Part shown: in pieces, positions 18,549 to 50,760 of the stretch
Position numbering within the stretch: the stretch's first letter is position 1
Layout of the letters: every line of letters begins with the position of its first letter
NCBI GenBank assembly: GCA_026393985.1
Contig: JAPKZB010000075.1
Coordinates: 1 to 55,458 of the forward strand
Length of the DNA stretch: 55,458 nucleotides
Origin: Acidobacteriota bacterium
GTDB taxonomy: Bacteria; Acidobacteriota; Terriglobia; Bryobacterales; Bryobacteraceae
Direction: 5' to 3'
The notes under the pieces: model-generated
What the model saw: only the letters and a program-made list of their open reading frames with translations
Databases searched by the model: none
Told to the model about the DNA's origin: nothing
Position numbers and translations under genes: made by a program

Positions 18549-21500
18549 TTAGTTGACGAACAGGAACTCGCTGGCACTCAGCAGCACCTTGGCGTAGCGG
18601 CCCCAGACGGTGGGTTCGTATTTGACAGAGGGCGGGGCGGCGCCACCGGGCCCGCGGCGGCCCATGCCTCCCATCATGCCCATGCCGAAGGCGTCAGCCG
18701 GCGGAGCGGCATCCGGAGCAGGGGCGGCGGCGGTTTCCGTCGGCAAGCCCTTATCGGGGCCAGGTTTGTCGGCTTCTTCGGGGGCGGGTTTGCTGGCGGC
18801 GGAGGCGGCCTCGGGGCGACGGCCACGGCCGGGCCCGCGGGGCGTTTCCGCCGGAGCTTTCTTCTTGCCTTCTTCGTATTCGAGCAGCGGTTCGGTTTTG
18901 AGATAGTCTAGGCCGAGGCTGATCTCTTCCGGGGTGGCTTCGCGGCCGTAGACGATCTGGTAGAGCTTCCTGATGCGGGCCGGGTTGTTGGGTTCGGCGG
19001 CGACGCGTTCGACGAGGGCTTCGGCCTGGACCTGCATGAAATCGCTGTTCATGAGGAACAGGCGCTGGGTAGGAACGGTAGTGACGAAGCGTTTTTCGGC
19101 GCTGATGAGCGGCGTGGGGAAGTCGAACAGCGACAGATACTCGTCGAGCTTGTAGCGGCTGACCTTACCGTAGACGGTGCGGCGATTGACGGCCGGGGTG
19201 AGTTCGACCGACGGGCCGCCGACGGCCTTATCGAGCTTACCGGAGACGTGGAGCACGGAGTCGCGGATCTGCTCGGCGTCCAGGCGCTTTTTATCGGCGC
19301 GCCAGTAGAGGCGGTTCCCGGAGTCCTTGGCGAGAGCGACGGGGTCACTTTCGGTGGAGAGCTGGTAGACGGAGCTGAGCATGATGTCGCGGTGAAGCTT
19401 TTTGACGGAGAGGCCGTTTTTGACAAAGTTGGCCGCGAGGTACTCAAGCAAGTCGGGGTTGGTGGGGCGTTCGCCGGTCATGCCGAAGTTGCTGGGTGAA
19501 TCGACGATGCCGGTGCCGAAGTGGCCCTTCCAGATGCGGTTGACGAAGACGCGCATGGCGATGGGCTGCTTGACGATTTGTTCGGCGAGTTCGATCCGGC
19601 CGCTGCCTTTCGAGAAGGGCGCGGGGTCGGAGGGGCTGAGAATGCTGAGGAAGTGGCGAGGCACTTCCTGCTTCAGGTCGAACGGGTCACCGCGGAAGGC
19701 GAGCTGGATGTTCCGGGCCTCAGGGGCGTCCTTGACGCTGTGAAGGTAGGGGAAGCCGGGTTCGAGCTTCTTGCGGGCCTCGTCGATGTCTTTGCGGATG
19801 GCGGCGATTTGCCCCTGGGTTTCTGAGCCCGAGCGCGATTCGAGGCCCCAGCCGCGGAAAGTGAGCACGCCGGGCTTGCCGAAGCGATTGCCGGCGGCCA
19901 TCATGGCGTTCGGGTCGTCACTATCGCTGAGCATGCGCTGGAAGATTTCGGTCCAGAAGGCGGTGTCGGCCTCGGGCATCTGCAGGAGGGTGAGGTTACA
20001 GCCGGGGCAGAAGTCGTCGTTGGTGACGAAGTTACTGGGCTTGTTCGTGCGCTTCTTTTTCTTGGTGCCTTCGATGGCCTTGGCCTGGATGACCTTATTC
20101 TGTTCGTCGAGATCATAGCGGGCCAGCATGACGGCGACCACCTCTTCCTGGAACTTTTCGGCCAGGCGCTTGGCTTCGGCGGAGGTGCTGGCTTTCTTCT
20201 TCATCATCATCGCCTGCCAGGCCTCTTTATTCTTGTACTTGTCGGTGGACTTCTCCATGTAGGCGATCCACCGCTCGAGCACTTCGTAGTCGAGGCGCCG
20301 GGCATCGACTACCGTGGCCTTGTCTTTCTTCTGCGGGCCGGTGACCTCCCAGACGCCCTGCAGATAGTTGGCGGTATCGAGGGCCAAGGCCTTCGAGAGG
20401 TTGGCGCCGACGTTCTGCTGGATTTCGGCCAACATTTTCTGTTTGAGGTCGATGTGATCCTCGATTTTCTGGAACTCTTCGAGGGTAGTTTTGGGAACGA
20501 GAGGGTACTCTTCGTAGATCGTGTTGTAAAAGACGCCGGCGAGGGCGTAGTAGTCGGTGGCGGGAATGGGATCGTACTTATGGTCGTGGCAGCGAGCGCA
20601 GCCGACGGTCAGGCCGAGGAAGCCGCGGCTGATGACGTCGACGCGGTCGTGGCGTTCATCGGCACGGGTGACTTCCGTGGAGCCGTTGTCGTAATACCAG
20701 GGGCCAAGGCCAAGGAAACCGGTACCGGGGAGCGTTTTGTGGCGGGTTTTGGGGTCGAGCAGATCGCCGGCGAGTTGGGCCTTGACGAAGTGATCGTAAG
20801 GCATGTCGTCCTGGAAGGCCTGAATGACCCAGTCGCGAAAATTGAAGGCGTTGGGGTAGGGGTTGTGGCCGCGACGCATGGGGTCGAGACTGCGGTAGTC
20901 GTCTTCGCCGTAGCGGGCGACGTCAAGCCAGAAGCGGCCCCAGCGTTCGCCGTAGTGCGGGGAGGCGAGGAGGCGATCAACCACCTTGGCGAAGGCGTTG
21001 GGCGCGGTGTCTTTCTCGAAGGCCTGGATTTCGTCGTAGGTGGGAGGGAGGCCGGTGAGGTCAAGCGTGGCACGGCGGAGCAGGTCGCGCTTCGAAGCGG
21101 GGCGGACCGGCTTGACGCCTTCCTTCTCAAGGCGGGCGGCGACGAAACGGTCGATGGCGGTCTGGCCCCACTTGGCGGTGGGGACAGCGGGTTCGCGCAG
21201 GGGCTGGAGCGACCAGAACTGGCGGGCTTCGGGCCGGATCACGTACTTCCCGCCGCTGGCGGCTTTGGTGTCATCCTGCACCTTGGCGCTGGCCGGCCAT
21301 TTCGCGCCGGCCTTGACCCAGGATTCGAGGACCTGGATTTCTTCATCCTTCAGCTTGTTGCCCATCGGCATTTTGTAGCCGGGGTCGGCGTGGCGGACAG
21401 CAATCAGCAGCGTGCTCTTGTCGGGTTCGGCAGCGTTCACCACCGGGCCGCGTTTACCACCCTTGGCGAGCGCTTCGCCACTATCGAGCCGCAGGCCGCC

Positions 21501-21635
21501 GAGGGCGGATTGCGTGTGACAGGCATAGCAATTCCTGGCCAGCAGCGGCCGGACCTTGTTTTCGAAGAACTCCGGGGAGTTCGGGCTCTGCGCGGAGGCG
21601 GCCAAAGAGAGAAGAAGAACCAAACTGTAGCGCAT
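18549..21635 (-). CDS. PSD1 and planctomycete cytochrome C domain protein (DUF1549/DUF1553)
   Basis: 1028 residues from the ATG at 21635 (AGGA upstream, then a signal peptide MRYSLVLLLSLAASAQ). A c-type heme site CYACH lies near residue 38, in the PSCyt1-type domain, followed by DUF1549 (WLDVARYGED, FRDWVIQAF) and DUF1553 (RIELAEQIV, FVNRIWKGHFG). About 85 residues before the C-terminal WGRYAKVLLSASEFLFVN is a low-complexity insert rich in Pro, Ala, Glu and then Gly/Met. Function of the family is unknown; an electron-transfer role in polymer breakdown has been suggested. Forms an operon with the DUF1501 gene. Confidence 0.92.
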   Translation of the reverse strand: MRYSLVLLLSLAASAQSPNSPEFFENKVRPLLARNCYACHTQSALGGLRLDSGEALAKGGKRGPVVNAAEPDKSTLLIAVRHADPGYKMPMGNKLKDEEIQVLESWVKAGAKWPASAKVQDDTKAASGGKYVIRPEARQFWSLQPLREPAVPTAKWGQTAIDRFVAARLEKEGVKPVRPASKRDLLRRATLDLTGLPPTYDEIQAFEKDTAPNAFAKVVDRLLASPHYGERWGRFWLDVARYGEDDYRSLDPMRRGHNPYPNAFNFRDWVIQAFQDDMPYDHFVKAQLAGDLLDPKTRHKTLPGTGFLGLGPWYYDNGSTEVTRADERHDRVDVISRGFLGLTVGCARCHDHKYDPIPATDYYALAGVFYNTIYEEYPLVPKTTLEEFQKIEDHIDLKQKMLAEIQQNVGANLSKALALDTANYLQGVWEVTGPQKKDKATVVDARRLDYEVLERWIAYMEKSTDKYKNKEAWQAMMMKKKASTSAEAKRLAEKFQEEVVAVMLARYDLDEQNKVIQAKAIEGTKKKKRTNKPSNFVTNDDFCPGCNLTLLQMPEADTAFWTEIFQRMLSDSDDPNAMMAAGNRFGKPGVLTFRGWGLESRSGSETQGQIAAIRKDIDEARKKLEPGFPYLHSVKDAPEARNIQLAFRGDPFDLKQEVPRHFLSILSPSDPAPFSKGSGRIELAEQIVKQPIAMRVFVNRIWKGHFGTGIVDSPSNFGMTGERPTNPDLLEYLAANFVKNGLSVKKLHRDIMLSSVYQLSTESDPVALAKDSGNRLYWRADKKRLDAEQIRDSVLHVSGKLDKAVGGPSVELTPAVNRRTVYGKVSRYKLDEYLSLFDFPTPLISAEKRFVTTVPTQRLFLMNSDFMQVQAEALVERVAAEPNNPARIRKLYQIVYGREATPEEISLGLDYLKTEPLLEYEEGKKKAPAETPRGPGRGRRPEAASAASKPAPEEADKPGPDKGLPTETAAAPAPDAAPPADAFGMGMMGGMGRRGPGGAAPPSVKYEPTVWGRYAKVLLSASEFLFVN

Positions 21636-21728
21636 GGAATCCTGGGAAGAACAGAATCGGTCGGTCGACAGGAGACCGGAAAGGTGGCTACAGAGCCAAG
21701 CGATACGACGCGGCCTAACCATTATAAG

Positions 21729-31557: not shown

Positions 31558-32300
31558 CCGAAAACGGCAAAGGCGGTTTGCGAGAGCATCTGCTGCTTCT
31601 GCTCAACTGGCACGTCGAGCCGAAGCAGCTTTCTCATTTCGACGTCGGTGTTTTCTATCAGGTCCGAACCGGCCATCAGACGATCGGCCGGAATATGCTG
31701 CAGCACCTCGAAGATGTGATTCGGCATCAGCGTTGACAGGTCGAGGTAGATGTTCGGACAGAACGAGGCGGCGACTATGGCGTCAGCCAGCAGCAGTCCG
31801 CCGCCGCCGCAGTGGGCGAGGACGATTTTGAGATCGGGATACCGCCGGGCCGCGAACATAAAGACAGAGGGCAGCGCGTGCGGGATGCCCGAACCGGTGT
31901 GGGCGATGAGCGCCATCCGGTTTTCAAGCGCCGTTTCAAACAGAAAGTTGCTGCGCTCGGAGAGCGTATTCAAGCCCTGATACTGCGGCTGAAACTTCAG
32001 CGCGCGGAAACCGTGCACCTCGCGGCAGCGGCGCACTTCATCGCGGAAGATCTGTTCCGGGATAAAGGGATTCAGGCAGGCGGCGCCGGTGAGGCGATCC
32101 GGATGGGCCGCGACGGCGGCGCCGATCTCTTCATGGGCGGCGGTGTAATCTTCGACGACGGGAAAGGGGATGACGACGGAACGGTCCACACCGCAGCGGT
32201 CCATCTCGCGCAGGAGTTGATCGGCGGTTTGGCGGCGGCCGCTGTGACGAGCAAGCCCGATGTGGGTGTGAGTGTCGTAGAGAAAGAAACCGTCTTTCAT
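31554..32300 (-). CDS. Amidohydrolase-2 family metal-dependent hydrolase
   Basis: 248 residues. DTHTHIG at the N-terminus gives the HxH metal motif, IAHTGSG and LAHCGGGG further ligands, and MAGSDLIENT the last Asp. Related to decarboxylases and hydrolases of the TIM-barrel amidohydrolase superfamily. Last gene of the MFS-queC-queE operon (12 nt after queE). Substrate unknown. Confidence 0.85.
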   Translation of the reverse strand: MKDGFFLYDTHTHIGLARHSGRRQTADQLLREMDRCGVDRSVVIPFPVVEDYTAAHEEIGAAVAAHPDRLTGAACLNPFIPEQIFRDEVRRCREVHGFRALKFQPQYQGLNTLSERSNFLFETALENRMALIAHTGSGIPHALPSVFMFAARRYPDLKIVLAHCGGGGLLLADAIVAASFCPNIYLDLSTLMPNHIFEVLQHIPADRLMAGSDLIENTDVEMRKLLRLDVPVEQKQQMLSQTAFAVFG

Positions 32301-32312
32301 AAACAGAACCGG

Positions 32313-32984
32313 TCATACGCCGCGCCGGTCGCCCCACAAGTCAACATGAAGGCGGGGGCTGAGGCGGAAGCCGTGTTCGAGGCACAGGGGGGCCAGCCAC
32401 AGGCTGCGTTCGCGCAGCAGGGCGGGGTCGCGCCCTTCGGGCATGAGGATGACGTTGCCGGGGGGCGCGGCGAGAGAGTCGACGAGCGCGCGAATTTCAT
32501 CGAGGTCGGCCGGGTTGGCGACGACGAACTTGAGCTGATACGGGTAGCGGTCCAGGAGCGTCCGCAGCACGGGCAGGTTGATGCGGGTATTCTCGTGGCG
32601 GATGGCCCAGTCGCCAGCCGGGGTGGAGTTGGCGAGTTTTGGGCTGATGCTCACCAGGTCGCAGGCGACGTCGGCATCGAGGGTGCCGGCGGTCTCGATG
32701 GTGATGTGCCAGCCGGCCTCCCGTAACGCCCGCGACAGGGGCACGAGTTGGGGCTGCAGCATGGGCTCGCCGCCGGTGAGGACGACGTGGCGGGCCGGAT
32801 AGGCGAGCACCTCGGCGAGGATGGAGTCCACCGTTCGCTCTTCGCCTTCGGGCTGCCACGAGGTGTAGGGGGTATCGCACCAGGAGCAGCGGAGGTTGCA
32901 GCCGCTCGTCCGGACGAAGACCGAAGGAACGCCCAGTAAGCTGCCCTCTCCCTGCAGCGAGTAGAAGATCTCGGCGATTTTCAT
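32313..32984 (-). CDS. queE: 7-carboxy-7-deazaguanine synthase QueE
   Basis: 223 residues from the ATG at 32984. Radical-SAM motif in SGCNLRCSWCDTPYTSW (CxxxCxxC), N-terminal IFYSLQGEG typical of QueE, and VVLTGGEPMLQ. It rearranges 6-carboxytetrahydropterin to 7-carboxy-7-deazaguanine, the step before QueC in preQ0 formation. It lies 10 nt after queC. queD and queF are not in the window. Confidence 0.95.
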   Translation of the reverse strand: MKIAEIFYSLQGEGSLLGVPSVFVRTSGCNLRCSWCDTPYTSWQPEGEERTVDSILAEVLAYPARHVVLTGGEPMLQPQLVPLSRALREAGWHITIETAGTLDADVACDLVSISPKLANSTPAGDWAIRHENTRINLPVLRTLLDRYPYQLKFVVANPADLDEIRALVDSLAAPPGNVILMPEGRDPALLRERSLWLAPLCLEHGFRLSPRLHVDLWGDRRGV

Positions 32985-32994
32985 AACGCGATTT

Positions 32995-33675
32995 TCACCC
33001 GAGCAGCGGGTCCGCCACGCCGGCTTCGGCAAAGCCTTTGGCGCGGAGCAGGCAGCTATCGCACTCGCCGCAAGGGCGGCCGTCCGGGGCCGGGTCGTAG
33101 CAGCTGTGGGTCAGGCCGAAATCGACGCCGGTGCTGAGGCCGAGCTGGATGATCCCGGCCTTGGTCAGTTCGATCAACGGCGTGCGAATGGCCAGCCGCG
33201 AGCGGCCTTCAACACCGGCCTTCGTAGCCAGGTTGGCCATCCGCACAAAGGCGTCGATGAAAGCGGGACGGCAGTCCGGATAGCCGGAGTAGTCGACGGC
33301 GTTCACCCCGATGAAGATGGTCTCGGCCTCGACCACCTCGGCCCAGGCGAGGGCAAAAGAGAGAAAAATGGTGTTCCGCGCGGGAACGTAGGTGATCGGA
33401 ATGCCGGCGCCCATTTCCAAGGCGCTGCGGTGCTTGGGCACTTCAATATCGTCCGTGAGGGCCGAGCCGCCAAAGACCCGCAGGTCGATGCGGGCCACCC
33501 GGTGGGCGTGGGCGCCAAGATGCGCCGCCACGCGTTCGGCCGCGGCCAACTCCTGCCGGTGGCGCTGCCCGTAGTCGAACGAGAGGGCATAGGTTTCAAA
33601 TCCCTCCCGGCGGGCGACAGCAAGGCAGGTGGCGGAATCGAGACCGCCGCTTAACAGACAAATGGCACGAGCCAA
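32995..33675 (-). CDS. queC: 7-cyano-7-deazaguanine synthase QueC
   Basis: 226 residues from a TTG at 33675, chosen because AGGAG lies 7 nt upstream and the length then fits the family. PP-loop [10 protein letters not shown] binds [13 protein letters not shown] and NTIFLSFAL are family signatures; HSCYDP and [10 protein letters not shown] hold the zinc cysteines. It converts 7-carboxy-7-deazaguanine to preQ0 with ATP and ammonia, for queuosine in tRNA. It starts 4 nt after the MFS gene's stop. Confidence 0.95.
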
Positions 33676-33679
33676 GGGC

Positions 33680-34885
33680 CTACTCCTTCTCCGGCAGCGT
33701 TCGCGCCAGCATCCAGCCGGCCAGCGGCAGAACACTGACCAAGGCCAGCGCCCGGTGCAGGCCGAAGTAATCAGCCGCCAATCCGGTGAGCGGAATAAAG
33801 ATCAGCCCGGCGCTTCCCCAGGCAAAACCCATCAACAGCGCCGAAACGGTGCCGGCCTGCCCCGGCACGAGACGCTGTCCCATGAGCAAATTGACGGGAA
33901 TGGTGAACAGTAACAGCAGTCCGCCCAGGGCCAGTCCCAGCAGCGACACCCAGCCCGAGGCCAGGAAGAAGACAGCGAGAAAGGGCAGACAGCCGAGCAT
34001 GGAGATCAGAATCACGCGCCGGCCGCCGAAACGGTCGGCCAGATGGCCGCCCACAAAGCCGCCCAGGGCGCCGAAGGTCATGTAGAGTGTCAGGCCCAGG
34101 GCCGCCGACTGCACGCTGAAGCCCCGCTCCCGGCTCAGATAAAGCGGCAGGAAATGGGCAAAACACATGTGCACCACCGAGCGGATGAACACGAGAAGAT
34201 AGTGCACCGTCAGCGGCTTCCATACGGCGCGCAGCGGCGCCAGGGAGATGCGGCCGCGTCCGGAACTCACCGGGGGCGTGCGCAGCGCCCGCCAGAGAAT
34301 GCCCGTAATCACCAGACCCGGAATCGCCCCCAGCCAACTGCCCTCCATGCCAAAGCGGCCCACGAGGAGCGAAAAGAACGCGGGGCCGATGGCCATGCCG
34401 AGCGTCCCCGAACTGATGAACACCGCCATCCAGCGGCCCGGGTTAGCCGGTATCCCCACCGTGGCATTGGCCGTGGCCTGCGGATGAAAGGATGCAACCC
34501 CCGCGCCACCGAGCAGGACCATTAGAAAAAGCCACGGATAGGCGGGCGCCCAACCGAGCAACGAAATGAAGACGCCCGCCACGGCAGGAGCCAAGACCGT
34601 GAACATCCAGGAGGGATACCGGTCGGAGAGAATGCCGTAGAGCGGCTGCAGGAGCGAGGAGGAGAAGACGAGCACCCCGCCCAGCAGCCCCGCCTGCGAT
34701 AGACTCAAGCCATGCTTGGCCACCAGCAGCGGCTGAAAACCGCTCAAGGCGCTCGAGTAGAGGTCGATGAAGAAGTGAGCAAAGGCGAGCAGACCCAGGG
34801 CTACGAAGCCGGACCGCTCAGCGGGTAGGGCCGCGGGCGGGGCTAAAGTGGCACTGGCGCTATTGGCACTCATGCAAAACTTCAT
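33680..34885 (-). CDS. MFS transporter, fosmidomycin-resistance (Fsr)-like
   Basis: 401 residues with about 12 transmembrane helices and the MFS loop motif GILSDRYP in the first half and [11 protein letters not shown] in the second. Fsr-like proteins export drugs or metabolites; the neighbours queC and queE suggest a deazapurine or precursor substrate, which is inference. Two starts are possible: ATG 34885, or ATG 34873. A TATAAT (34884-34889) overlaps the first ATG, favouring the second. Confidence 0.88.
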
Positions 34886-34926
34886 TATAGCGAAACCTAT
34901 TTCTACGCCCGGGGTTTGAATTGATT

Positions 34927-37416
34927 ATGGGGAACTTACGGCTTGCAATAGCGATGGGATGGGCGGCGATCAGCTGGGCGCAGGCCCCGACTGCGCCCGT
35001 CCTGAACCAGCGGGGTGCGGTCAATGCCGTCACCCTGCAGCCGGCGCCGAGTAACGTCTCGCCGGGCGGACTGCTGCTGATCACCGGAATCAATCTGGGG
35101 CCGGCGGCCGGCTTTCGCGCCACCACCACGCCGCTGCCCACCAGCATTGACGACCCGCCCCTTGAAGTGCGCATCAACAACCGACCCGCGCCGATTTTCG
35201 AGGCCACGCCGGGTTCAGTGACGGTGCAGGTTCCGCTGGAAACGCCGCTTGGCGCAATGCCAATTGTGGTGCGCCGCGGGACCGTCAATAGCAGCCCGGC
35301 CCGGGTGAACGTGGTCGCGCCCTTCCCTTCACTGCGCACGGCCAACGGACAGGGGTTTGGCGCAGCCCCCGACGCCGAGGGAGGTAAGCTCCGCCTGGCG
35401 GTGGCCGGACTCGGGCTGAGCGAACCGCGCGTCAACGCCGGCGAGTTGCCGGGCGCCGAAGAGACGGCCGCACCCCGGCAGGCCATCCGCGCCAATGTGG
35501 GCGGTTTCCCCGCCGAGGTCTCCGCCAAGCTCTCGGCCACCAAAGTGGGCGAGTTTGATGTGGAGGTGACGCTTCCCGAGGGGGCGAAGGCCAGCGATGT
35601 GGTGGCCCTCTACGCGGGCAACACGGCCGGCAATCGGGTAACCCTGGGCGCCGAGCCGGCCGCCACGATCGAGTACCTGCCCCTGCCCGAAGCCGCCCGT
35701 ACTGCGCGCGGCCTCGCGGCGAGCGACCTGCGCCCGGGTTTCCTGGCGCTGAGCGCGCCGCGGAACGGAGAGGGGTGCTGGCCCTCGTGGCTCGTCGATT
35801 TTTCGCGCAACTCGGTCCGCGAGATTCCCGGCTGCCCGGCGTCGGCCAACCAAAACGCGGCCAGCCCGTTTCAAGCCAACCCGGAATCGGCGATCCTGGC
35901 CGCCTTCGCCGGCCCCGCCACGGGCCCGGCCGCGCAGGGCGTGAGCGACAAAGTAACGATTCTCCATCCCGCCCAGAGTGACCCGATGGCGGTTACCCTG
36001 CCGGCCCGCGGCCTGAACATCGGCGGCGCGCCGGGCGGCAATTTAAACATCGTCCTGGCGACCACCCCGCCCTCGACTGTCCTCATCAACGCCGCAACCG
36101 GCGAGGTGAGCGAACCCGCCGGGCCCGGCGGTGGCCAGCCCGGCGGTGGCGGCGGCGGATTGAACCTGGCGAATCTGCAGGTAGACCTTGGCGATGACGT
36201 CAAACAGTTGGTCGCCCAGCCGGTTAACCTGGGGCAGGGCGCCTTTGGCGTTCTCGCCGTCGACAACGCCTCGGCCGTGACGCGCGCCAAGTTTGGCATA
36301 CTCAACGCGGCCGGCGCCGTGCAGTCCACGCGGCCGTTCCCGGAAACCTGGCTGCCGTTGCTCGCTCCCGTGCAGGCCCAGGGGCCGGGGCTGCCGGGCG
36401 GAATTCTTCCCGGCGGACCGGGTGGACCAGGCGGTGCCTTGGGCGCGGCGGCCGCCATTCTGCGGGGCGCCACGATCTTTGACGGCCAGGCCCGGGTTTA
36501 CTGGGTCCTCGCCCGCAACCTGGCGAAAACCGCCGATGCCTTCATCGGCTTCCCGCTCACCGGCAATACCGAACCTGTCATCCGCCGCTTGGCGGAGGGA
36601 ACCTTTGTCGCCTCCTGCACCCCGCAGACCCGCCTGTTCAACATCGACCTGACGCGCCGCATTGCCGTGTCGACGGGCGTCACCGCCGAGGCCGAGGTGA
36701 AGAATCCGTGCTCGGCCAACGCCTTCGCCGTACTCGACCTCGGCGCACGCACGCTGACCGCCATCACCCTGCCCGGTCAGGGTGAGTTCAGCGTCTCCGG
36801 TAACAGCGCCAGTGAGATGAGCGACTATGTCTACGGCACCAATACCGACCCGGGGCGGCAGAACCGCTCCGATACCATTTACGTTCTCGACGGCGTTGGC
36901 AACTCCGCCTTCCGGCTCGACCTGCCCCCGGAGAGTGCCACATTTAACAACCTCAGCCCGATTCCGGAGATGACCCTGCTGGTGGCGCAGGCAAACGCCC
37001 AGGGCTCGAACGTAGCCGGCGGCGCGGGCCTCGTGATCTTCGACATTGAAAACCAGCAAGCAAAGCTGTTGCCCACCCCGGCCGGCTATTCGGCGGTACA
37101 GCTGCTGGCGACCTTCCCGGTGAGCCGCAAGCTGCTGGCCCGGGGCACCCGGACGGACCCGGCGGGCAGCCAACTGCTGCTGTACGACCTGGTCACCGGC
37201 AACCTGCAGATTCTCGCGAATCCCGAGGGCGTCAGTTGGGTCGGCCAAGTGCCGAACGCGCCGGGCCAACCGGGCCAACCGGGGCAACCCGGACAACCGG
37301 GGCAGCAGCCCGCCCCGGCCATCCAGCACTTCTCGCCCCGGTCCAACGCCGTCCACGTAATGGGTTACGGCGCCAACCGGCAGCCCGCCGGGATGATTCT
37401 GGTCCGGGTGAACTAA
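34927..37416 (+). CDS. Large secreted protein with TIG-like N-terminus and low-complexity linkers
   Basis: 829 residues from the ATG at 34927 (a TTG two codons earlier is an alternative). Signal peptide of about 18 residues ending ISWAQA. Residues 20-130 resemble the beta-sandwich module common at the ends of Solibacter secreted proteins (VSPGGLLLITGINLGP, VTVQVPLETPLG). Gly-rich linkers occur near residues 400 and 490, and a collagen-like PGQ repeat near 780. The C-terminal half has propeller-like strands. No catalytic motif found. Ends with a 4-nt overlap with the threonine synthase gene. Confidence 0.7.
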   Translation: MGNLRLAIAMGWAAISWAQAPTAPVLNQRGAVNAVTLQPAPSNVSPGGLLLITGINLGPAAGFRATTTPLPTSIDDPPLEVRINNRPAPIFEATPGSVTVQVPLETPLGAMPIVVRRGTVNSSPARVNVVAPFPSLRTANGQGFGAAPDAEGGKLRLAVAGLGLSEPRVNAGELPGAEETAAPRQAIRANVGGFPAEVSAKLSATKVGEFDVEVTLPEGAKASDVVALYAGNTAGNRVTLGAEPAATIEYLPLPEAARTARGLAASDLRPGFLALSAPRNGEGCWPSWLVDFSRNSVREIPGCPASANQNAASPFQANPESAILAAFAGPATGPAAQGVSDKVTILHPAQSDPMAVTLPARGLNIGGAPGGNLNIVLATTPPSTVLINAATGEVSEPAGPGGGQPGGGGGGLNLANLQVDLGDDVKQLVAQPVNLGQGAFGVLAVDNASAVTRAKFGILNAAGAVQSTRPFPETWLPLLAPVQAQGPGLPGGILPGGPGGPGGALGAAAAILRGATIFDGQARVYWVLARNLAKTADAFIGFPLTGNTEPVIRRLAEGTFVASCTPQTRLFNIDLTRRIAVSTGVTAEAEVKNPCSANAFAVLDLGARTLTAITLPGQGEFSVSGNSASEMSDYVYGTNTDPGRQNRSDTIYVLDGVGNSAFRLDLPPESATFNNLSPIPEMTLLVAQANAQGSNVAGGAGLVIFDIENQQAKLLPTPAGYSAVQLLATFPVSRKLLARGTRTDPAGSQLLLYDLVTGNLQILANPEGVSWVGQVPNAPGQPGQPGQPGQPGQQPAPAIQHFSPRSNAVHVMGYGANRQPAGMILVRVN

Positions 37417-42788: not shown

Positions 42789-43640
42789 ATGACGCGCCGC
42801 CAACTGCTGGCCTCCCTGCTCGCCCCCGAACCGATTATCGATATCCATCAGCACACCCCCTACGCCGGCCGCACCGACGAAGAGCTCGTCCGGCATCAGG
42901 AGGTGATGGGGGTGACGCTGTCCATCCTGCTGCCCGCCGGACGGAAGTACGGGCTGGCCGCCGGGGCGGGCGGCAACGACATCTGCGTGCGGCTCGCCCG
43001 GCAGTACCCGGACCGCTTCAAGTTCTTCGCCAACGAAGCGCCCGATGTGCCGGACGCCCGGCAGACCATCGAAAAGTATCTCAAGCTCGGCGCCATCGGC
43101 ATCGGCGAACAGAAGTTCCCGCTCGATTGCGATGGCCCGGAGGTGCGCGCCGTGGCCGACCTGGCCCGCGACTACAAAGTGCCCGTGCTGCTGCACTTTG
43201 AACACAACACCTACAACCTCGGCTTCAACCGCTTCTACCGCATCCTTGAAAAGTACCCCGCCGTAAACTTCATCGGCCACGCCCAAACCTGGTGGGGCAA
43301 CATCGACGCCTCCCTCGAACAGGAGGTGCTCTATCCCCGCACCAAGGTCACGCCCGGCGGCATTACCGACCGCTACCTGCGCGACTACCCGAACATGTTC
43401 GCCGACATGAGCGCCGGCAGCGGCCTCAACGCCCTGCTTCGCGATGAGGACCACGCCCGCGGCTTCCTCGACCGCCACCAGAACAAGCTTTTGTACGGCA
43501 GCGACTGCAACGACCGCGATGGGCAGGGCGACCGTTGCAGCGGCCACAAGCAGATTGCCACCATCCGCCGCCTGGCGCCGAACAAAGCCGCCGAACGGAA
43601 GATACTCTATGAAAACTCCAAGCGCCTGTTCCGGCTCTAG
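42789..43640 (+). CDS. Amidohydrolase-family protein
   Basis: 283 residues from the ATG at 42789; a longer open frame upstream is antisense to the acyltransferase gene. IIDIHQHTP supplies the HxH metal motif, LLHFEHNTYN and FIGHAQTWW further His residues, and LLYGSDCNDRD the last Asp. TIM-barrel amidohydrolase-2 type, substrate unknown. The first residues MTRRQLLASLLAP look like a vestigial Tat-type leader. Ends in a CTAG 4-nt overlap with the convergent cupredoxin-like gene. Confidence 0.85.
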   Translation: MTRRQLLASLLAPEPIIDIHQHTPYAGRTDEELVRHQEVMGVTLSILLPAGRKYGLAAGAGGNDICVRLARQYPDRFKFFANEAPDVPDARQTIEKYLKLGAIGIGEQKFPLDCDGPEVRAVADLARDYKVPVLLHFEHNTYNLGFNRFYRILEKYPAVNFIGHAQTWWGNIDASLEQEVLYPRTKVTPGGITDRYLRDYPNMFADMSAGSGLNALLRDEDHARGFLDRHQNKLLYGSDCNDRDGQGDRCSGHKQIATIRRLAPNKAAERKILYENSKRLFRL

Positions 43641-44344
43641 TCGCGGTACTCGACCGACACCGTAACCGGCTGGCCGGCTTCGACGGTCAACTCCCGCGTC
43701 ACCTCGCCGAGGGCCTCGTGCCAGACGGCGAGCGTATAGCGGCCCGGCGGCAGATCCGGCCAGGCGAACTCGCCGCGGGGACCGGTCACGGCCAGAAAGG
43801 GATGGTCCAGCACACCGATATACGACCGCATCCAGTTATGCACGTTGCACTTGACCGGGATCATCACCTCGGGCACGGCGAACTTACGCTGCAGGTCCGG
43901 CGCGCCCGGCGGCTGCTGCTGGTTCCAGTCGCGGTTCTCGCGCGGGGTGGGGTGGACGTTGTGCGAAACCGGGTCGGCGTTCTTCACGGTTAGCGTCTGG
44001 CCGGTGCGCAGCGCGAGCACGCGGGGAACAAACTGGCAGCCCCGCTGTTCGAGCACCACGGCTTCGGTGGGCGGCGCGAAACGGCGATTCTCAAGCCCCG
44101 CCTTGATATAGACGAACGCATTGGCAAGAGCGCCTTCGGCGGAAACAATTATCCGGTCCTCGGAAGCCGGCTCCCGGTGCAATTTCTGACAGTCCTCTTC
44201 GGCCTCCATCGACAGCACCTTCGAGGCGCGCTTGGCGCCCTTGTAGAGAATCGTGCCGCTCACGGGCACGCGCGGGACCGGCGGCTCCGGCCCCGCGCAC
44301 CCCACCAGGCCCACCAGCAACGCTACGCACAGTTCGCGCCTCAT
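43637..44344 (-). CDS. Cupredoxin-like lipoprotein (methylamine utilization protein-like)
   Basis: 235 residues. Lipobox near LVGC at residue 16. Type-I copper-like ligands appear in SHNVHP (His) and VKCNVHNWM (Cys, His, possible Met), so blue-copper electron transfer is plausible. The C-terminal part (GEFAWPDLPPGRYTLAVWH) is a carboxypeptidase-regulatory-like beta-sandwich. Overlaps the di-heme peroxidase gene by 4 nt (ATGA), so translation is coupled. Confidence 0.82.
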   Translation of the reverse strand: MRRELCVALLVGLVGCAGPEPPVPRVPVSGTILYKGAKRASKVLSMEAEEDCQKLHREPASEDRIIVSAEGALANAFVYIKAGLENRRFAPPTEAVVLEQRGCQFVPRVLALRTGQTLTVKNADPVSHNVHPTPRENRDWNQQQPPGAPDLQRKFAVPEVMIPVKCNVHNWMRSYIGVLDHPFLAVTGPRGEFAWPDLPPGRYTLAVWHEALGEVTRELTVEAGQPVTVSVEYRD

Positions 44345-45372
44345 GGATTGGCCACCGCCTCCCCGGTCAACGATTCCAGAAACGCCACCAGATCACTCCG
44401 TTCCTGCCGGGTGAACGACGTGAGCGGCTGAATCAAGGGATCGAGCTGCGGATTGGCATTGCCGCCGCCCACGTAAAAGTCCACCACCTCCTTCAAGCTC
44501 TTCAAACTGCCATCGTGCATGTAGGGGGCGGTCTCGGCGATGTTGCGCAGGCTGGGCGTCCGGAAAGCTCCCCGGTCGGGCTCCCGGCCGGTGACCGCGT
44601 AGCGGCCCGGGTCGGGGAGGTTCCCCGCCGGGTCCATGCCGACGCCCAGGTTGTGAAATTTCTGGTCGGTAAGCAGCGCATGGTCGGCCGCGATGGTATG
44701 GCACACAGCGCATTTGGCTTTATTGCGAAACAAAGCCAAGCCGCGTTGGGCTTCTTCGCTTAGCGCCGTCCGGTCGCCGCCGAACAGATAGCGGTCAAAC
44801 GGCGAGTTGCCGCGCACCAGCGTTTTTTCGTAGGCGGCAATGGCTTTGGTAATGCGTTCGAGCGTGACGGCCTCGTCACCGTAGGCCGCCGCCATGAACC
44901 GCCGGAACTCCGGGTCGGCCGCCACGGCCGACACCACGCCGCGGCTCGAATGGCCCATCTCCACCGGGTTCATCATCGGCCCGGAGGCCTGCTGTTCGAG
45001 CGTAGCCGCCCGGCCATCCCAGAACTGACTGCTCCAGTAGGCCGCGTTCCACACCGACGGCGCGTTGCGGTTGCCGCGCCCCCCGTTAACCCCGGGCGAG
45101 TTTGGCCGCGGGTCGGCAAACCCTTGGCCCGGCTGGTGGCAACTGGCGCAGGCGAGCGTCCCATCGACCGAAAGCGACGGGCTGAAAAACAGCTTCTTGC
45201 CCAACGCCACCGCGGCAGCCGGAGCGGCGCCCGGCACCGCCGGCAGCCCCAGCGGCGCACGGATGCTCTCCGGCTTCCCGACGAAATCAGCCTTCGTGCA
45301 GCCGGCCAGCACCGCGACCGCCAACACCGGCAGCCAGCGCCTCGCTACTGTCCGATCACTACCACGCCCCAC
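44341..45372 (-). CDS. Di-heme cytochrome c peroxidase (MauG/CCP family) lipoprotein
   Basis: 343 residues from a GTG at 45372, which overlaps the preceding gene by 28 nt. Lipobox VLAGC. Two c-type heme sites, CASCHQ and CAVCHT, and the family motifs GQGFADPR, WDGRAATLEQQ, FRTPSLRNIAETAPYMHDG. It may reduce hydrogen peroxide or oxidise a partner protein as MauG does. Second-last gene of the five-gene redox operon. Confidence 0.93.
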   Translation of the reverse strand: MGRGSDRTVARRWLPVLAVAVLAGCTKADFVGKPESIRAPLGLPAVPGAAPAAAVALGKKLFFSPSLSVDGTLACASCHQPGQGFADPRPNSPGVNGGRGNRNAPSVWNAAYWSSQFWDGRAATLEQQASGPMMNPVEMGHSSRGVVSAVAADPEFRRFMAAAYGDEAVTLERITKAIAAYEKTLVRGNSPFDRYLFGGDRTALSEEAQRGLALFRNKAKCAVCHTIAADHALLTDQKFHNLGVGMDPAGNLPDPGRYAVTGREPDRGAFRTPSLRNIAETAPYMHDGSLKSLKEVVDFYVGGGNANPQLDPLIQPLTSFTRQERSDLVAFLESLTGEAVANP

Positions 45373-46382
45373 GGCCGTTCACCCGCCTTGATCTTCCGAA
45401 CCACCTGCATCGTGCTGACGTCAATCACCGAGACATCGTTCGACGGCCCATTAGCCGAAAACAGCATCTTCTCATCCGGCGAGAGCGCAATGCCCCACGG
45501 CCGCTGCCCCGCCTCCACCGAACCGACGACCTTATCCGTAGCGGTATCAATCGCCAGCACCTTCTTGCCCCGGCCCGTGCTCACGTAGAGCCGGCCGCCA
45601 TCGCGGGTCAGTGCGGTGCCCATCGGCTTCAAGCCGGGCTCCAGCGTCACGTTGCCCGCCGCCGCCATCTTTTCGAGGTTGAGAATGGTGAGGTTGCCAT
45701 CGTTCTCGTTGGTGACGTAGGCGCGTTTGCCATCCGGGAGAATCGCGATGTCACGCGGCCGCCGCCCCACCTTGATGGTCTTCACGATCTTGCCGGAGGC
45801 GGCATCGATCACCGCCACGGTGCCATCGTCTTCTGAGGTCACCAGCACCAGCTTGCCGTCCGGGCTCAGCCGCACACCCTCGGGCTCTTCGCCCGTGGGC
45901 ACGGTCTTCAGCACCGTACCGTCGGCAATCCGGATCATGCTCACCCCGGCGGCATCTTCGTTCGCCACGTAGATGGATGTCCCGTCTTTGCTGATGGTGA
46001 ACTGCTCCGGATCCGAGCCCCCGAAGAACTTCCTAACCACCTTCCGCTGCGCGAGATCCACCACGCCAATGCCGTCGGCCGATTTATCCGGCGGCGGCAG
46101 CGTGCTCTCATCGACGCCAGGAGGCGCCGAAGGCGAGCCGCTGAGGGCGACAAAGATCTGCCCGCCCAGCGCCTGCACGCCGCGCGGACGCTTGCCGAGC
46201 GGAATCCGCGCCAACTCCTCGGGCTTGGCCGGATCGATGACGGTCAGGTCGCCGGACCCTTCGTTGGTGACATAGACCAGGTAGGGGGGCTTGGTCTCCG
46301 CCACCGGAGGGGCCGCCGGCTCAGGAGCCTTCGTGCAAGCGGCGCCGAACAAGAGGAACACAGCGGGCAGCAGTTTCTTCAT
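45345..46382 (-). CDS. YVTN beta-propeller lipoprotein
   Basis: 345 residues. Lipobox FGAAC, then a seven-bladed YVTN/cytochrome cd1-like propeller with repeats of the type PDGKRAYVTNENDGNLTIL. No heme site. GAGGCG lies shortly before the ATG and the gene starts 6 nt after the cytochrome-HhH gene. Such propellers often act as binding or scaffold proteins beside di-heme peroxidases. Confidence 0.9.
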   Translation of the reverse strand: MKKLLPAVFLLFGAACTKAPEPAAPPVAETKPPYLVYVTNEGSGDLTVIDPAKPEELARIPLGKRPRGVQALGGQIFVALSGSPSAPPGVDESTLPPPDKSADGIGVVDLAQRKVVRKFFGGSDPEQFTISKDGTSIYVANEDAAGVSMIRIADGTVLKTVPTGEEPEGVRLSPDGKLVLVTSEDDGTVAVIDAASGKIVKTIKVGRRPRDIAILPDGKRAYVTNENDGNLTILNLEKMAAAGNVTLEPGLKPMGTALTRDGGRLYVSTGRGKKVLAIDTATDKVVGSVEAGQRPWGIALSPDEKMLFSANGPSNDVSVIDVSTMQVVRKIKAGERPWGVVVIGQ

Positions 46383-46388
46383 ATCGCC

Positions 46389-46853
46389 TCAGAACGTGAC
46401 GCGGTCTTTCTTCTCGTCCAGCTTGGCGGTCTCCAGACCCGGCACCTTCAGCAGCTCTTCCCAGGTTTTGAAGTTGCCATGCTCTTTGCGCCAAGCCAGC
46501 ACCGCCGCCGCCTGTGACCGTTTGAGACTCAACCCGCTTTCCAGTTGAATCGCCGTCGCCGTATTCAAGTTAATGCGCGGAACCTCTTCGGCGGGGAAGT
46601 TTTTGACCAGATAGTCGAGCACCAGGGCATATTCCTGATCGGTAGCCTTCATGCCGAACGCGGTCATCTTGGTCATCGACTTTTCCCAGCCGCCCCGGTC
46701 GAGCCGGGGGGAGATGGCCCGGGCGATTTCGTGACACTGCTTGCAGAGCCGCTCCGTCTCGGCCTTGCCCGCGCCATCGGGCAGCACTTGGGCGGTTGCC
46801 GCGGCTACGAACGCTAAACCGGTTGCCAACGCGAAAGAAGGAAAGGATCGCAT
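46389..46853 (-). CDS. Small c-type cytochrome fused to a ComEA-type helix-hairpin-helix domain
   Basis: 154 residues with a signal peptide (to about ATAQ). Residues 25-90 are a class-I cytochrome: CKQCH, then GGWEKSMTKM and FGMKATDQEYALVLDYLVKNF with a likely axial Met. Residues 93-154 form a helix-hairpin-helix pair of ComEA type (INLNTATAIQL, VLAWRKEHGNFKTWEELLKVPGL). ComEA binds DNA outside the cell during uptake, so the fusion to a heme domain is unusual. TAAAAT (46860-46865) ends 6 nt before the ATG and overlaps the stop of the propeller gene. Confidence 0.85.
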   Translation of the reverse strand: MRSFPSFALATGLAFVAAATAQVLPDGAGKAETERLCKQCHEIARAISPRLDRGGWEKSMTKMTAFGMKATDQEYALVLDYLVKNFPAEEVPRINLNTATAIQLESGLSLKRSQAAAVLAWRKEHGNFKTWEELLKVPGLETAKLDEKKDRVTF

Positions 46854-46862
46854 AACCCTATT

Positions 46863-48425
46863 TTAAATCTCAAACGGGAAGCTGAACACGTACTGCGTGC
46901 CGTCGAAGGTCGACACGTAGACCCGGCTGTCGCCCGCCGCCAGCGAACCGCTGTGGACGAACGAGGTCATCGCAGTGCCGGAGCTCCAAACCTCTTTGCC
47001 GGTGGCGCTGTCGAGCGCATAAAGCACGGCGGGGACGGACTTGGCAACGGTGGTCTTGGCATCGGTGGAGCGGAACTCACCCGACGAGAGCGCAAACACC
47101 ACACCGTTGATCACCACGGGCGCCGTCGGCGAAACCAGCTCGCGGGAGGTCCAGGCGACCTCCAGCCGGCCCTCGCCCGCCAGCTTAAAGGCGGTTATGT
47201 TCTTGCCCGCAGGCGCCAGAATCCAGCGCGTGCCCGACGGGTCCTGCCAACTGGCGAGCGCGCCGGCCTGATAGCCCGGCGTGGCGAACACCGACGACTG
47301 CGCATAGGCCTTGCTCAGGTCGGCCGTATCGACCACCTGCAGATGTCCCTGCGCGCTGGTGGCGGCCACCAGATTCCTGCCCTGGAACTCAAAGACCAGC
47401 GGGGAGGAGGTGAACTCGCCCACCGGGGACTTGTAGGAGCCCTTCGCTTCGAGGGTCTTGCCGGTCAGCGCCGTCAACTCGGCGCCCGCCGTGACATAGA
47501 CGGTACCGTCCGGAGCGATGGCCGGACCAGCCGTTCCCGCCACGTTACCCGCGGCCTTCCACTTGTTCACTTTCTTGGCATCCATCTCGAGCGCCCAAAC
47601 GCCGTTATCGATGCCGCCGCAGGCATTCTGCGTCGCCACGTAGGCAACCCGGTCTACGACAATGAGGCCCTGCGCATTGGCGCCCACGGGCAGAAACGGC
47701 AGGGCCGGGGCCGGCTCCTCGCCGTTCGAGACGTAGAGCGAGTGCAACAGACCATCGCCTGTCAGGGCATTCACCCACTGAATGCGCGGAGAAAAGGGAT
47801 TCGGCGCCGCCGGGGCACCCGGCTTGGCCGGCGCAACCGGCGGCGCCGGACGCACCGGAGCATCGCGCCGCAGCGTCACCGCGCCTTCATAGGGCTGCCC
47901 CACGCCCGACTTGGCCGGGTTGCCGCGACCCGGTCCGGAACCGGTCGGCACGGGACGGTAGGCGAGCACGGTGGGCCGCGTGACGTTGGCCGTCATGCCG
48001 CCGGGACAGGCAAACGTACCGGCAGAGCGCCGGGCCTTGCCCGCGTAGCTCTTCTCCCACTCGACGCGCGACAGATGCAGATCGTAGGCGATCACGCGGT
48101 CATCGCTGCCGCCGAAGAATCCAAGCGTCCGGAAGCCCCGGTAGCTGATGTAGAAATCGAGCAGGGCGGGAGGGGTCAGCGCGTTGAGCTGGCGGGCCAC
48201 GTTGGCCGGCTTGGTCTTCCACAACAGCCCGAACCCGGGCTTGGCCATCGAGGCTTTCGAGATCTTCTCATCGTTCCGGACCCAGTACGACCGCTGGGCG
48301 TCAAAGCCACTCGTCATCCAATCGCCGCTGCCGCGCTGGGCGACCGCCACTGTCGGCAGCAACGCCGTCAAAACGGCCGCCGCGGCCAGAAACCCTCTAC
48401 GCAGAACCAAAGTTGTCTTCTTCAT
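46863..48425 (-). CDS. PQQ-type beta-propeller protein, secreted
   Basis: 520 residues from the ATG at 48425 (a TTG two codons earlier is possible). Twin-Arg-like leader [15 protein letters not shown]-like propeller repeats ([31 protein letters not shown]). It shares CPGGMTAN and a CGG segment with the divergent gene at 48503. A Pro/Ala-rich insert lies around residue 190-215. No clear PQQ-stacking Trp or vicinal Cys pair, so cofactor binding is unproven. First gene of a tightly packed five-gene operon. Confidence 0.85.
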
Positions 48426-48502
48426 TTCCAAGCTCGATTCACAATCATATAACCAAGACGATCCGTTTGGGATATAGTGTGATTTTCGGAGTCCCCTTGC
48501 AT

Positions 48503-50050
48503 ATGAGAAGAACCCCGCTCGCTCTTGTTTTCTTGACCGCGGCCGCCTTCGGCGGACCCGCTGACTGGCTGACGGATGGAGGCGACAGCAAACGCAACAA
48601 CTGGCAAAAGAACGAAACCATCCTCACCAAAGCCAACATCAAGGGCATGCAACTGCTCTGGAAGAAAAAGCTCGACAACCAGCCGCGCCAGATGCACTCG
48701 CTGCTCGAGCCGCTCGTCATCGGCCAGATCAACACGAAGAACGGCCCGAAGGAGATGGTGATTCAGGCCGGGGTCTCCGACAATCTGTACGCTCTCGACG
48801 CCAGAAACGGCGATCTGCTCTGGAAGCGCCACTTTGAGAGCACTTACGCGGACCCCGTGGGCGGCCGCGGCCCCAGCGTCCTGTGCCCCGGCGGCATGAC
48901 CGCCAACGCCACGATCGGCCCCGGCGACCAGCCCGGTTCCTACAAGATCTATGCGGTTTCCTGGGATGGCCGCCTCCACATCCTGAACGCCGCCGACGGC
49001 GAGCCGCTCTCGCCCCCGCTCAAGTTTATGCCGCCCAACGGCAAGCCCTACGCCTTGAACCTCGTCAACAACGTCATCTATACGCACAGCGCTCAGGGCT
49101 GCGGCGGCAACCCGAACATGGCCTATACCTACGACCTCGCCACGCACAAGGTGGGGAGCTGGGGCCCAGCCGGCGGCGGCATGTGGGGACGGTCCGGCCC
49201 GGCCGTGAGCAAGGATCTCGTGATGTACACGGGCACCGGCGATGGCCGCTGGGATCCGGAAAACGGCGTCTACGGCAACGGCATTATCGGCGTCAAGCAG
49301 AACCCTGAGACCAAGGCCCTGGAACTGGCCGACTACTACGGCCCCTCGAACGCCGAATGGCTCTGGAAGCGCGACCTCGACATGCAGGTTACCCCGGCCA
49401 TCTTCGACTTCAAGGGCCGCGAGTACATGATTGACGCAAGCAAAGAGTGCCGCATCTATCTGATGGACACCGAGTCGATCGGCGGCGACGACCATCGCAC
49501 GCCCGCCTATCGCACCCCGCTCATCTGCAACGAGATTGTCGACTTCGCCGAGGCCGGCATCTGGGGTTCGCTCGCCACCTGGGAGGACGCCAAAGGAACC
49601 CGCTGGATCCTGACCCCGTTCTGGGGCGCCAAGCATTCCAAGTACAAGGCCCCGCTCGAATACGGTCCGGTGAAGAAGGGCGCCATCGCCGCCTTCAAAA
49701 TGGAGTTGGTCAATGGCAAGCCGGTGCTCCAACCCGCCTGGGTTTCGCGCGACATGAACCAGGCCGAACCGCCCATCATCGCCAACGGCATGATCTTCGC
49801 CTACGGCAGCGGCGAGAACACCGCGCAGGCCTTCCCCGACGTCGGCCTCGATTTCCGCATGGAGCGCCGCGTGCCGCTGTCCACCCACGCCGTCCTCTAC
49901 GTGCTCGACGCCGAAACCGGCAAAGAGCTCTGGAACAGCGGCAAGGAGATCACCAACTGGAACCATTGGAGCGGCCTCGGCCTCGCCAATGGCCAGGTTT
50001 ACATCAATACCTACGACGGCCATCTGTACTGCTACGGCCTCAAGAAATGA
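48503..50050 (+). CDS. PQQ-type beta-propeller protein, secreted, paralogue of the divergent gene
   Basis: 515 residues. Signal peptide [17 protein letters not shown]. Propeller repeats ([32 protein letters not shown]), CPGGMTAN and QGCGGNPNM. Compared with its paralogue it lacks the Pro-rich insert. GGAG lies about 10 nt upstream. A TATAGT hexamer (48474-48479) is a likely -10. The next gene overlaps its stop by 4 nt (ATGA). Confidence 0.85.
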
Positions 50051-50760
50051 GGTTCGTCGGTGCCCTTTTGCTCCTGGCGCTGAGCTTTCGGCTCAGCGCC
50101 CAGGAACTGTCCCGAGAACAGCTTGAAACCGCTCTCGAAGCCTACCGCCGGATCCTGCTCGACTGGGGCGGTCTCACCCGCTACGGCAGCGAAAACGCCG
50201 AACTGAAACCGCAACCCGGACGCGTTGTTTTCCTCGGCGACGAGATTACCGAAAACTGGGGGCCGGAGTTCTTTCCGGGCAAGCCCTACCTGAACCGGGG
50301 CATTACCCGCCAGACCGTCGCCCAGATGCTCGTCCGCTTCCGCCAGGACGTCATCTCGCTCAAACCCGCCGTGGTCGTCATTCAAGCCGGCACCAACGAC
50401 CTTGCCAGCGTCATGGGTCCGTCCACGGAGGGCACCATGGCCGACCACTTTATGTCGATGGTGGAGCTGGCAAAACAGCACCACATCAAAGTGGTTCTAT
50501 CTTCCGTGACCCCCGTCTGCGACTGTTTCACCAAAATGACCGCCCGGCGGCCCGTGGGCAAGATTCTCAGTTTGAACGGCTGGTTGAAGTCCTACGCCGC
50601 CCGGAACGGCATCCCGTATCTCGACTACTACGGGGCGCTGGTGGAGGGCCGTTTTTTCAAGCAGAGCCTGACGGTGGACGGCCTCCTGCCCAACGCCGCT
50701 GGTTACGCTGTGATGGCGCCGCTGGCCGAAAAGGCGATCGCCGAGGCGATCGCCCGCTAG
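50047..50760 (+). CDS. SGNH/GDSL-fold protein lacking catalytic Ser and His
   Basis: 237 residues with a signal peptide ending near LSAQ. The SGNH fold is clear: block [13 protein letters not shown], block II Gly in [10 protein letters not shown], block III QAGTND, block [12 protein letters not shown]. The catalytic Ser of GDS is Glu66 and the catalytic His of DGxHP is Leu214, while Asp211 and the oxyanion Gly and Asn remain. It is therefore probably not an esterase and may bind ligand. Translationally coupled to the propeller gene. Confidence 0.87.

Follow-up and report, generated by a model that had tools for sequence, protein, structure and literature searches.

Among the described systems that come closest to the locus analyzed here are the pyrroloquinoline quinone (PQQ) dehydrogenases, the mau system, the MbnH/MbnP pair, and the lacABC/DUF1080 and levoglucosan genes, whose 3-keto-sugar chemistry is treated in passages of PMC9007349 and PMC7676230. 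Passages of PMC12124388 state that some bacteria use PQQ without making it, and that Acidobacteria are ubiquitous and abundant soil bacteria. For MauG, a figure legend and a reference title in PMC6405878 indicate Tyr-His ligation with Tyr294 as axial ligand, and parts of PMC3621798 describe an MbnH-type di-heme protein that is conserved with a neighboring partner, as is the di-heme protein (CCP) of the present locus. We analyzed a window of 55,458 nucleotides (nt), by which we mean the whole stretch (contig JAPKZB010000075.1, assembly GCA_026393985.1) from an Acidobacteriota bacterium of the family Bryobacteraceae, and within it a module of seven genes. The module is real and conserved, its parts are of known kinds, and no description of this gene combination or of the seemingly altered quinoprotein site was found in the literature searched. 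It is composed of a core (PQQ2-PQQ1-CYTH, often with SGNH) and a trio (CCP-CUP-YVTN), which are separable in position and co-occur by genome. In our tentative reading, with a probability of roughly 0.42, it would be a periplasmic sugar or glycoside dehydrogenase in two linked sub-modules, accompanied by electron-transfer and maturation proteins. The module is laid out as follows:

CUP, 43637-44344, minus strand: open reading frame (ORF) for a cupredoxin lipoprotein whose C-terminal domain is CarboxypepD_reg (PF13620).
CCP, 44341-45372, minus strand: ORF for a MauG/MbnH-like di-heme c lipoprotein with two CxxCH motifs.
YVTN, 45345-46382, minus strand: ORF for a beta-propeller lipoprotein with YVTN repeats.
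CYTH, 46389-46853, minus strand: ORF for a mono-heme cytochrome c domain fused to a ComEA-like helix-hairpin-helix (HhH) domain.
PQQ1, 46863-48431 (ATG at 48425), minus strand: ORF for a propeller homologous to PQQ2.
Divergent intergenic region, 48426-48502, no strand: 77 nt between the two ATGs, from the coordinates.
PQQ2, 48503-50050, plus strand: ORF for a quinoprotein-fold propeller.
SGNH, 50047-50760, plus strand: ORF for an exported pseudo-esterase.

Both putative divergent promoters presumably lie within 48426-48502, and 4 nt are shared by PQQ2 and SGNH. The seven genes are where the initial annotation had placed them, and the gaps it gave for the minus-strand genes (9, 6, -28, and -4 nt) agreed exactly with the ORF list. 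The families it had named were borne out by Pfam and NCBIfam, with matches to CCP_MauG and cytochrome c (CCP), YVTN repeats (YVTN), PQQ_2/PQQ (both propellers), and Lipase_GDSL_2 (SGNH). CYTH gave an HHH_3 match, its cytochrome part being represented by CxxCH and a weak SorB match; CUP matched CarboxypepD_reg and, weakly, fn3_3, and its cupredoxin fold was obtained from a predicted model. Our reading by eye also agreed with the signal peptides or lipoboxes claimed for all seven proteins, with Cys lipoboxes in CUP, CCP, and YVTN.

The conservation of the locus was assessed by tblastn (E ≤ 1e-8) in the best 80 of the 109 PQQ2 stretches that were confirmed when named genomes were scanned with PQQ2 as query. 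Many of these loci stop at contig edges, and all genome counts given here are raw, the kinship between genomes being ignored. The initial annotation had set the co-location of these families in related genomes as the test of a unit, and co-location was indeed observed, with PQQ1 present in 74 of the 80 loci. SGNH was found in 62 loci, CYTH in 56, YVTN in 21 (L070 among them being a weak match), CUP in 18, and CCP in 16. When only the 47 loci that extend 5 kilobases (kb) or more on each side were counted, the corresponding numbers were 44 (PQQ1), 35 (CYTH), 34 (SGNH), 14 (YVTN), 14 (CUP), and 13 (CCP). The genes that flank the module in the window (SH3, ManA, AspC, and CoaD) were each present in just 7 or 8 of the 80 loci, which indicates linkage within the module and not general synteny. 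Relatives of PQQ2 (E ≤ 1e-30) occurred in 67 of the 121 genomes of the host's family, and the clustering of neighbors in the 80 loci revealed no additional family that accompanies the core everywhere. A conserved redox unit, as had been proposed, is thus supported, but not as one fixed seven-gene block: all seven genes were present in only 12 of the 80 loci, and a core plus a trio describes the locus better. The proposed completeness of the unit is not supported: in 13 of the 120 related stretches there is in addition a sugar-type cassette, the TIM gene of which was not found in this genome.

The division into core and trio is apparent from the genes located within 15 kb of each other. These counts cover the best 62 CCP matches, the first 37 CYTH matches, all CUP matches except the seven weakest, and PQQ2 matches down to E 1e-179; CCP proteins with E ≤ 1e-100 were considered close. 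CUP was found near 30 of the 32 close CCP genes, as compared to none of the next 30, and PQQ2 near 8 of the 32. Among the 37 CYTH genes, 18 were near PQQ2, 16 near CUP, and 27 near PQQ2, PQQ2b, or CUP. The PQQ2b subfamily shares 54% identity with PQQ2, and two of its 11 rows (L146 and L147) place the trio between the propellers and CYTH. At the genome level, 28 of the 32 genomes with a close CCP carry PQQ2, and 3 of the remaining 4 carry PQQ2b. This co-occurrence extends to another family of the same class (f4, 25 genomes), in which PQQ2 (E ≤ 1e-15) and CCP (E ≤ 1e-40) were present in the same 7 genomes and neither was present in the other 18, one genus (g85) having members in both groups. CUP alone was widespread (138 of the 247 genomes sampled across the phylum).

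We infer that PQQ2 is an enzyme and the probable catalytic subunit of the module. With its methanol-dehydrogenase fold, and together with its degenerate paralogue PQQ1, it would oxidize a small substrate, for which the gene context makes a sugar or glycoside, oxidized at a hydroxyl (C3), the likeliest candidate. Electrons would pass from PQQ2-PQQ1 to the cytochrome CYTH, and the dead SGNH, in the form seen in the window, may act as a binding or scaffold partner. The role of the trio would be either the onward transfer of electrons or the oxidative maturation of a partner: the amicyanin-like CUP would serve as an additional electron carrier, and CCP, paired with YVTN as a propeller scaffold, would act in maturation or in electron transfer.

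The predicted model of PQQ2 (predicted local distance difference test [pLDDT] of 86.9) adopts the quinoprotein propeller fold. In Foldseek searches, the top match was XoxF/methanol dehydrogenase (MDH), with an E value of 3.7e-14, a template modeling (TM) score of 0.62 by query, and a root mean square deviation of 7.9; the TM scores against XoxF/MDH are modest, about 0.5 to 0.6. We aligned 51 PQQ2-type proteins of 40 to 100% identity, and matches with less than 39% identity or 80% cover, including second, PQQ1-like propellers, were left out. W228, D247, D291, and D293 were invariant in all 51 proteins. C128 and C200 were both present in 48 proteins and both absent in 3, and this covariation suggests that they form a disulfide. 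L174, L175, and L177 encode PQQ2-type proteins that lack C128 and C200 yet keep W228, D247, D291, and D293. The vicinal Cys-Cys located over PQQ was seen at this place in none of the 51 proteins, since C128 is followed by Pro or Thr in 48 of them and is absent in 3.

An unrestricted hhalign alignment of PQQ2 with the PQQ alcohol dehydrogenase (PQQ-ADH) family suffered from slippage by whole blades and was replaced by a restricted, weaker alignment with a probability of 81 (1.7 in global mode). In the latter, D291 corresponds to the catalytic Asp, D247 to the Asn, and C200 to the Glu ligand, D293 is likewise kept, and PQQ2 lacks one of the two vicinal Cys; the roles are those that we take these positions (vicinal Cys, Glu/Asn/Asp metal site, catalytic Asp) to have in PQQ-ADH. 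The stacking Trp of methanol dehydrogenase presumably falls near W228, although this placement is not firm. PQQ2 is hence of the PQQ type by fold, whereas its cofactor site, as far as the alignments indicate, looks altered. The homology of PQQ1 to PQQ2 covers almost all of PQQ1 (hhalign P=100, E 5e-108, 445 columns), and in that alignment PQQ1 has no equivalents of W228, D247, D291, and D293.

These features bear on the possibility that PQQ2 is an ordinary PQQ dehydrogenase that operates on environmental PQQ, the trio being a separate copper/heme module merely clustered with it. The host's own genome contains 36 matches to the PQQ-ADH family (E ≤ 0.001; 26 of 65 first-look candidates scored), whereas PqqC was not found in it and PqqE gave 7 weaker matches and none over the cut-off. 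Of the 41 genomes searched, 37 had a PQQ-ADH match over the cut-off, and 3 had PqqC, the same 3 that had PqqE. Many PQQ-ADH matches without PqqC or PqqE are a puzzle, which is echoed by the NCBIfam name "acido-empty-quinoprotein" and which the module narrows to a few expressible proteins, namely, an apparently altered quinoprotein fold, a MauG-like enzyme, and a blue-copper-type protein. Scavenging would agree with these counts, with the use of PQQ without synthesis described for bacteria in passages of PMC12124388, and with the retention in PQQ2 of D293 and of D291, which aligns with the catalytic Asp. It agrees less well with the lack of the vicinal Cys-Cys, with the alignment of Cys200 to the Glu metal ligand, and with the presence of CCP and PQQ2 in the same 7 of the 25 f4 genomes. 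In addition, the same passages report PqqU within Acidobacteria from Vicinamibacteria only, while allowing uptake by diffusion. On balance, we consider scavenging unlikely, though to be taken seriously.

The di-heme protein was relevant to a second alternative. Tyr300 of CCP occupies the same alignment position as MauG residue 294 and as a Tyr in PDB entry 6e1c, which was deposited as "Di-heme enzyme" and which we take to be MbnH, whereas two peroxidases in the same alignment have Met at this position. Tyr300 was invariant in 14 aligned CCP sequences, including that of the window. With two CxxCH motifs and a Tyr at the second-heme ligand position, CCP is MauG-like in the broad sense and, judged from its sequence, a di-heme protein of the Tyr-ligand type. 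It scored below the curated cut-offs for MauG (TIGR03791; 230 versus 444 bits) and MbnH (TIGR04039; 251 versus 363 bits). CCP might instead act as a cytochrome c peroxidase in a peroxide-reducing chain, receiving its electrons from CUP and CYTH, with the propellers being structural. The top PDB scores of full-length CCP, which are to bacterial cytochrome c peroxidases, and the cupredoxin and cytochrome genes beside CCP would fit such a chain. However, the position of Tyr300 set back the assignment of CCP as a plain peroxidase, and the invariant acidic residues of PQQ2 would be unexpected in a passive scaffold; such a chain appears improbable to us.

A further proposal would have PQQ2 function without PQQ, by means of a protein-derived cofactor (an oxidized Trp or Tyr, or C128-C200 at a metal site) that is installed by CCP, with CUP as the acceptor. 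We regard this as quite improbable. If true, the module would be a PQQ-free, self-contained sugar dehydrogenase, which would help to explain acidobacterial quinoprotein-like genes without PQQ synthesis genes.

The predicted model of CUP (pLDDT 88.8) matched NirK, amicyanin, plastocyanin, and pseudoazurin over one domain in Foldseek searches, with TM scores against amicyanin of about 0.3 by query and 0.7 by target. H128, C166, H169, and M172 were invariant in 16 aligned CUP sequences, including that of the window, and are, on the model, candidate type 1 copper ligands of an amicyanin-like set. The predicted model thus combines the type 1 cupredoxin fold with His, Cys, His, and Met at the ligand places. 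W171 (26 of 26 aligned CUP rows) and W140 (25 of 26, with Phe in one CUP without an adjacent CCP) were rejected as CCP targets, since they are kept regardless of CCP adjacency and hence give no pointer to CCP. In YVTN, C16 was invariant in 19 aligned sequences, including that of the window. In another alternative, CCP and YVTN would join one more subunit in a catalytic complex resembling hydrazine synthase beta-gamma, with its own small-molecule chemistry and with electrons supplied by the propeller pair. In its favor, YVTN matches hydrazine synthase beta (124 bits) and CCP matches gamma (39 bits), and in the published enzyme, according to parts of PMC12607021, the gamma subunit is MauG-like and its partner beta is a propeller. 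However, these scores are far under the curated cut-offs (560 bits for beta and 625 bits for gamma), the YVTN repeats match many propeller families, and there is no alpha-like protein among the seven; we consider such a complex highly improbable.

Turning to the remaining core proteins, C37, C40, H41, and M63 of CYTH were invariant in 54 aligned sequences, including that of the window, and M63 is a candidate heme ligand. Scanning revealed two glucose-dehydrogenase-like quinoproteins that carry a fused CYTH-type cytochrome domain, one in this genome (L206) and one in another genome (L207), and L208 resembles this fusion. The L206 fusion scored 642 bits with PF01011 and 484 versus 833 bits with TIGR03074:

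L206:757-3084, this genome, contig C65: CYTH-type domain N-terminal to a glucose/quinate-dehydrogenase-like quinoprotein.

SGNH had been described in the initial annotation as catalytically dead, and this turned out to be a family trait: among 61 aligned sequences, including that of the window, the catalytic Ser was absent from all (replaced by Glu in 36, Asp in 22, and Gln in 3) and the catalytic His was present in only 1. In the window, Ser is replaced by Glu and His by Leu.

The gene context was scanned in 120 stretches, namely, the best 80 PQQ2 loci and 40 chosen later. A TIM barrel gene (PF01261) was found in 13 stretches and a 405-amino acid protein without family in 12, and these genes were accompanied by Gfo/Idh (16 matches, a few of them weak) and PF06439 (17 matches). 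In the 80 PQQ2 loci alone, neighbor clustering placed the TIM barrel in 7 and Gfo/Idh in 6. In some related loci, the TIM, Gfo/Idh, and PF06439 genes adjoin PQQ2 or the trio, which ties the module in these relatives further to 3-keto-sugar-type genes. The best NCBIfam match of Gfo/Idh was levoglucosan dehydrogenase (344 bits, cut-off 650). Among the 121 family genomes, the TIM gene was present in 39; a PQQ2 relative occurs in 35 of these 39, as compared to 67 of all 121. A PQQ2-like gene was located within 10 kb of 9 of the 39 TIM genes. The 405-amino acid protein that leads the sugar-type cassette (L173:3693-4907 and relatives) matched neither Pfam nor NCBIfam families at E ≤ 0.001. In the window, about 28 kb from the module, there is a match to the 3-keto-disaccharide hydrolase family PF06439 (15361-15867, minus strand), adjoined by a gene for an outer-membrane barrel protein (11856-15239, minus strand). 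Elsewhere in the window, 18549-21722 (minus strand) encodes a PSCyt1/DUF1549/DUF1553 protein of the planctomycete cytochrome type, and the guanine-cytosine skew (2-kb windows) flips sign within 32001-36000.

The reading of the module as a sugar or glycoside dehydrogenase has to be weighed against a number of observations. Concerning linkage, 10 of 38 PQQ2 genomes had no close CCP; only 8 of 38 PQQ2 genes were within 15 kb of CCP and 10 of 38 near CUP, and only 18 of 37 CYTH genes were near PQQ2, many contigs being short in both cases. SGNH had no match in 18 of the 80 PQQ2 loci, and none was seen in the PQQ2b and f4 stretches fetched. Concerning catalysis, BamB, which is not known to be an enzyme, also matched the PQQ2 model (E about 1e-11), and the active-site mapping is weak because it is based on the restricted alignment with a probability of 81. 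Concerning the substrate, a search of this genome for the cassette's TIM gene gave no match at E ≤ 1e-50, and PF06439 alone was rejected as evidence, given a background of 26 matches over the cut-off in this genome. Concerning maturation, we screened PQQ2, PQQ1, CYTH, YVTN, and CUP for Trp, Tyr, Cys, His, Met, or Phe residues kept in at least 90% of the CCP-plus sequences and in less than 60% of the CCP-minus sequences (16, 10, 11, 8, and 10, respectively; SGNH was left out), and no residue passed, some of the genomes being incomplete. Furthermore, a Tyr ligand is no proof of a maturation role, because BthA, the role of which is not settled according to passages of PMC6405878, also has one.

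The module resembles the described systems in part. TIGR04528 (acido-empty-quinoprotein group A) is likewise a quinoprotein-like family, but its match to PQQ2 was weak and N-terminal (42 bits, cut-off 650). The mau system is similar in that a di-heme protein of the MauG type, a cupredoxin resembling amicyanin, and a propeller of the YVTN type are encoded together; it differs in that CCP scored 230 bits with MauG (cut-off 444), and in that there is no small subunit with tryptophan tryptophylquinone (TTQ; MauA) among the seven proteins, the genome not having been searched for one. In the MbnH/MbnP pair (TIGR04039/TIGR04052), MbnH is the best NCBIfam match of CCP, whereas the score is 251 versus 363 bits, the partner of CCP is a cupredoxin, and none of the seven proteins matched TIGR04052 at E ≤ 0.01. 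With lacABC/DUF1080 and levoglucosan lgdA-B1-B2-C, some loci share PF06439, a sugar-isomerase-like TIM barrel, and Gfo/Idh beside an oxidoreductase, although here the oxidoreductase would be a quinoprotein-fold pair and a search of this genome revealed no such TIM gene. The PQQ dehydrogenases (XoxF/MxaF, PedH; TIGR03075, TIGR03074) differ from PQQ2 in the vicinal disulfide, which it lacks, and in the Glu ligand and the Asn, which align with Cys and Asp, respectively, as well as in the degenerate partner PQQ1 (74 of 80 loci) and in a genome with no PqqC and no PqqE over the cut-off. They are nevertheless the closest to PQQ2 in fold by model, and share with it export and, as far as the alignment indicates, an equivalent of the catalytic Asp; as in PQQ dehydrogenases with a cytochrome c acceptor, a cytochrome gene lies beside PQQ2, and there are quinoproteins to which a related cytochrome domain is fused.

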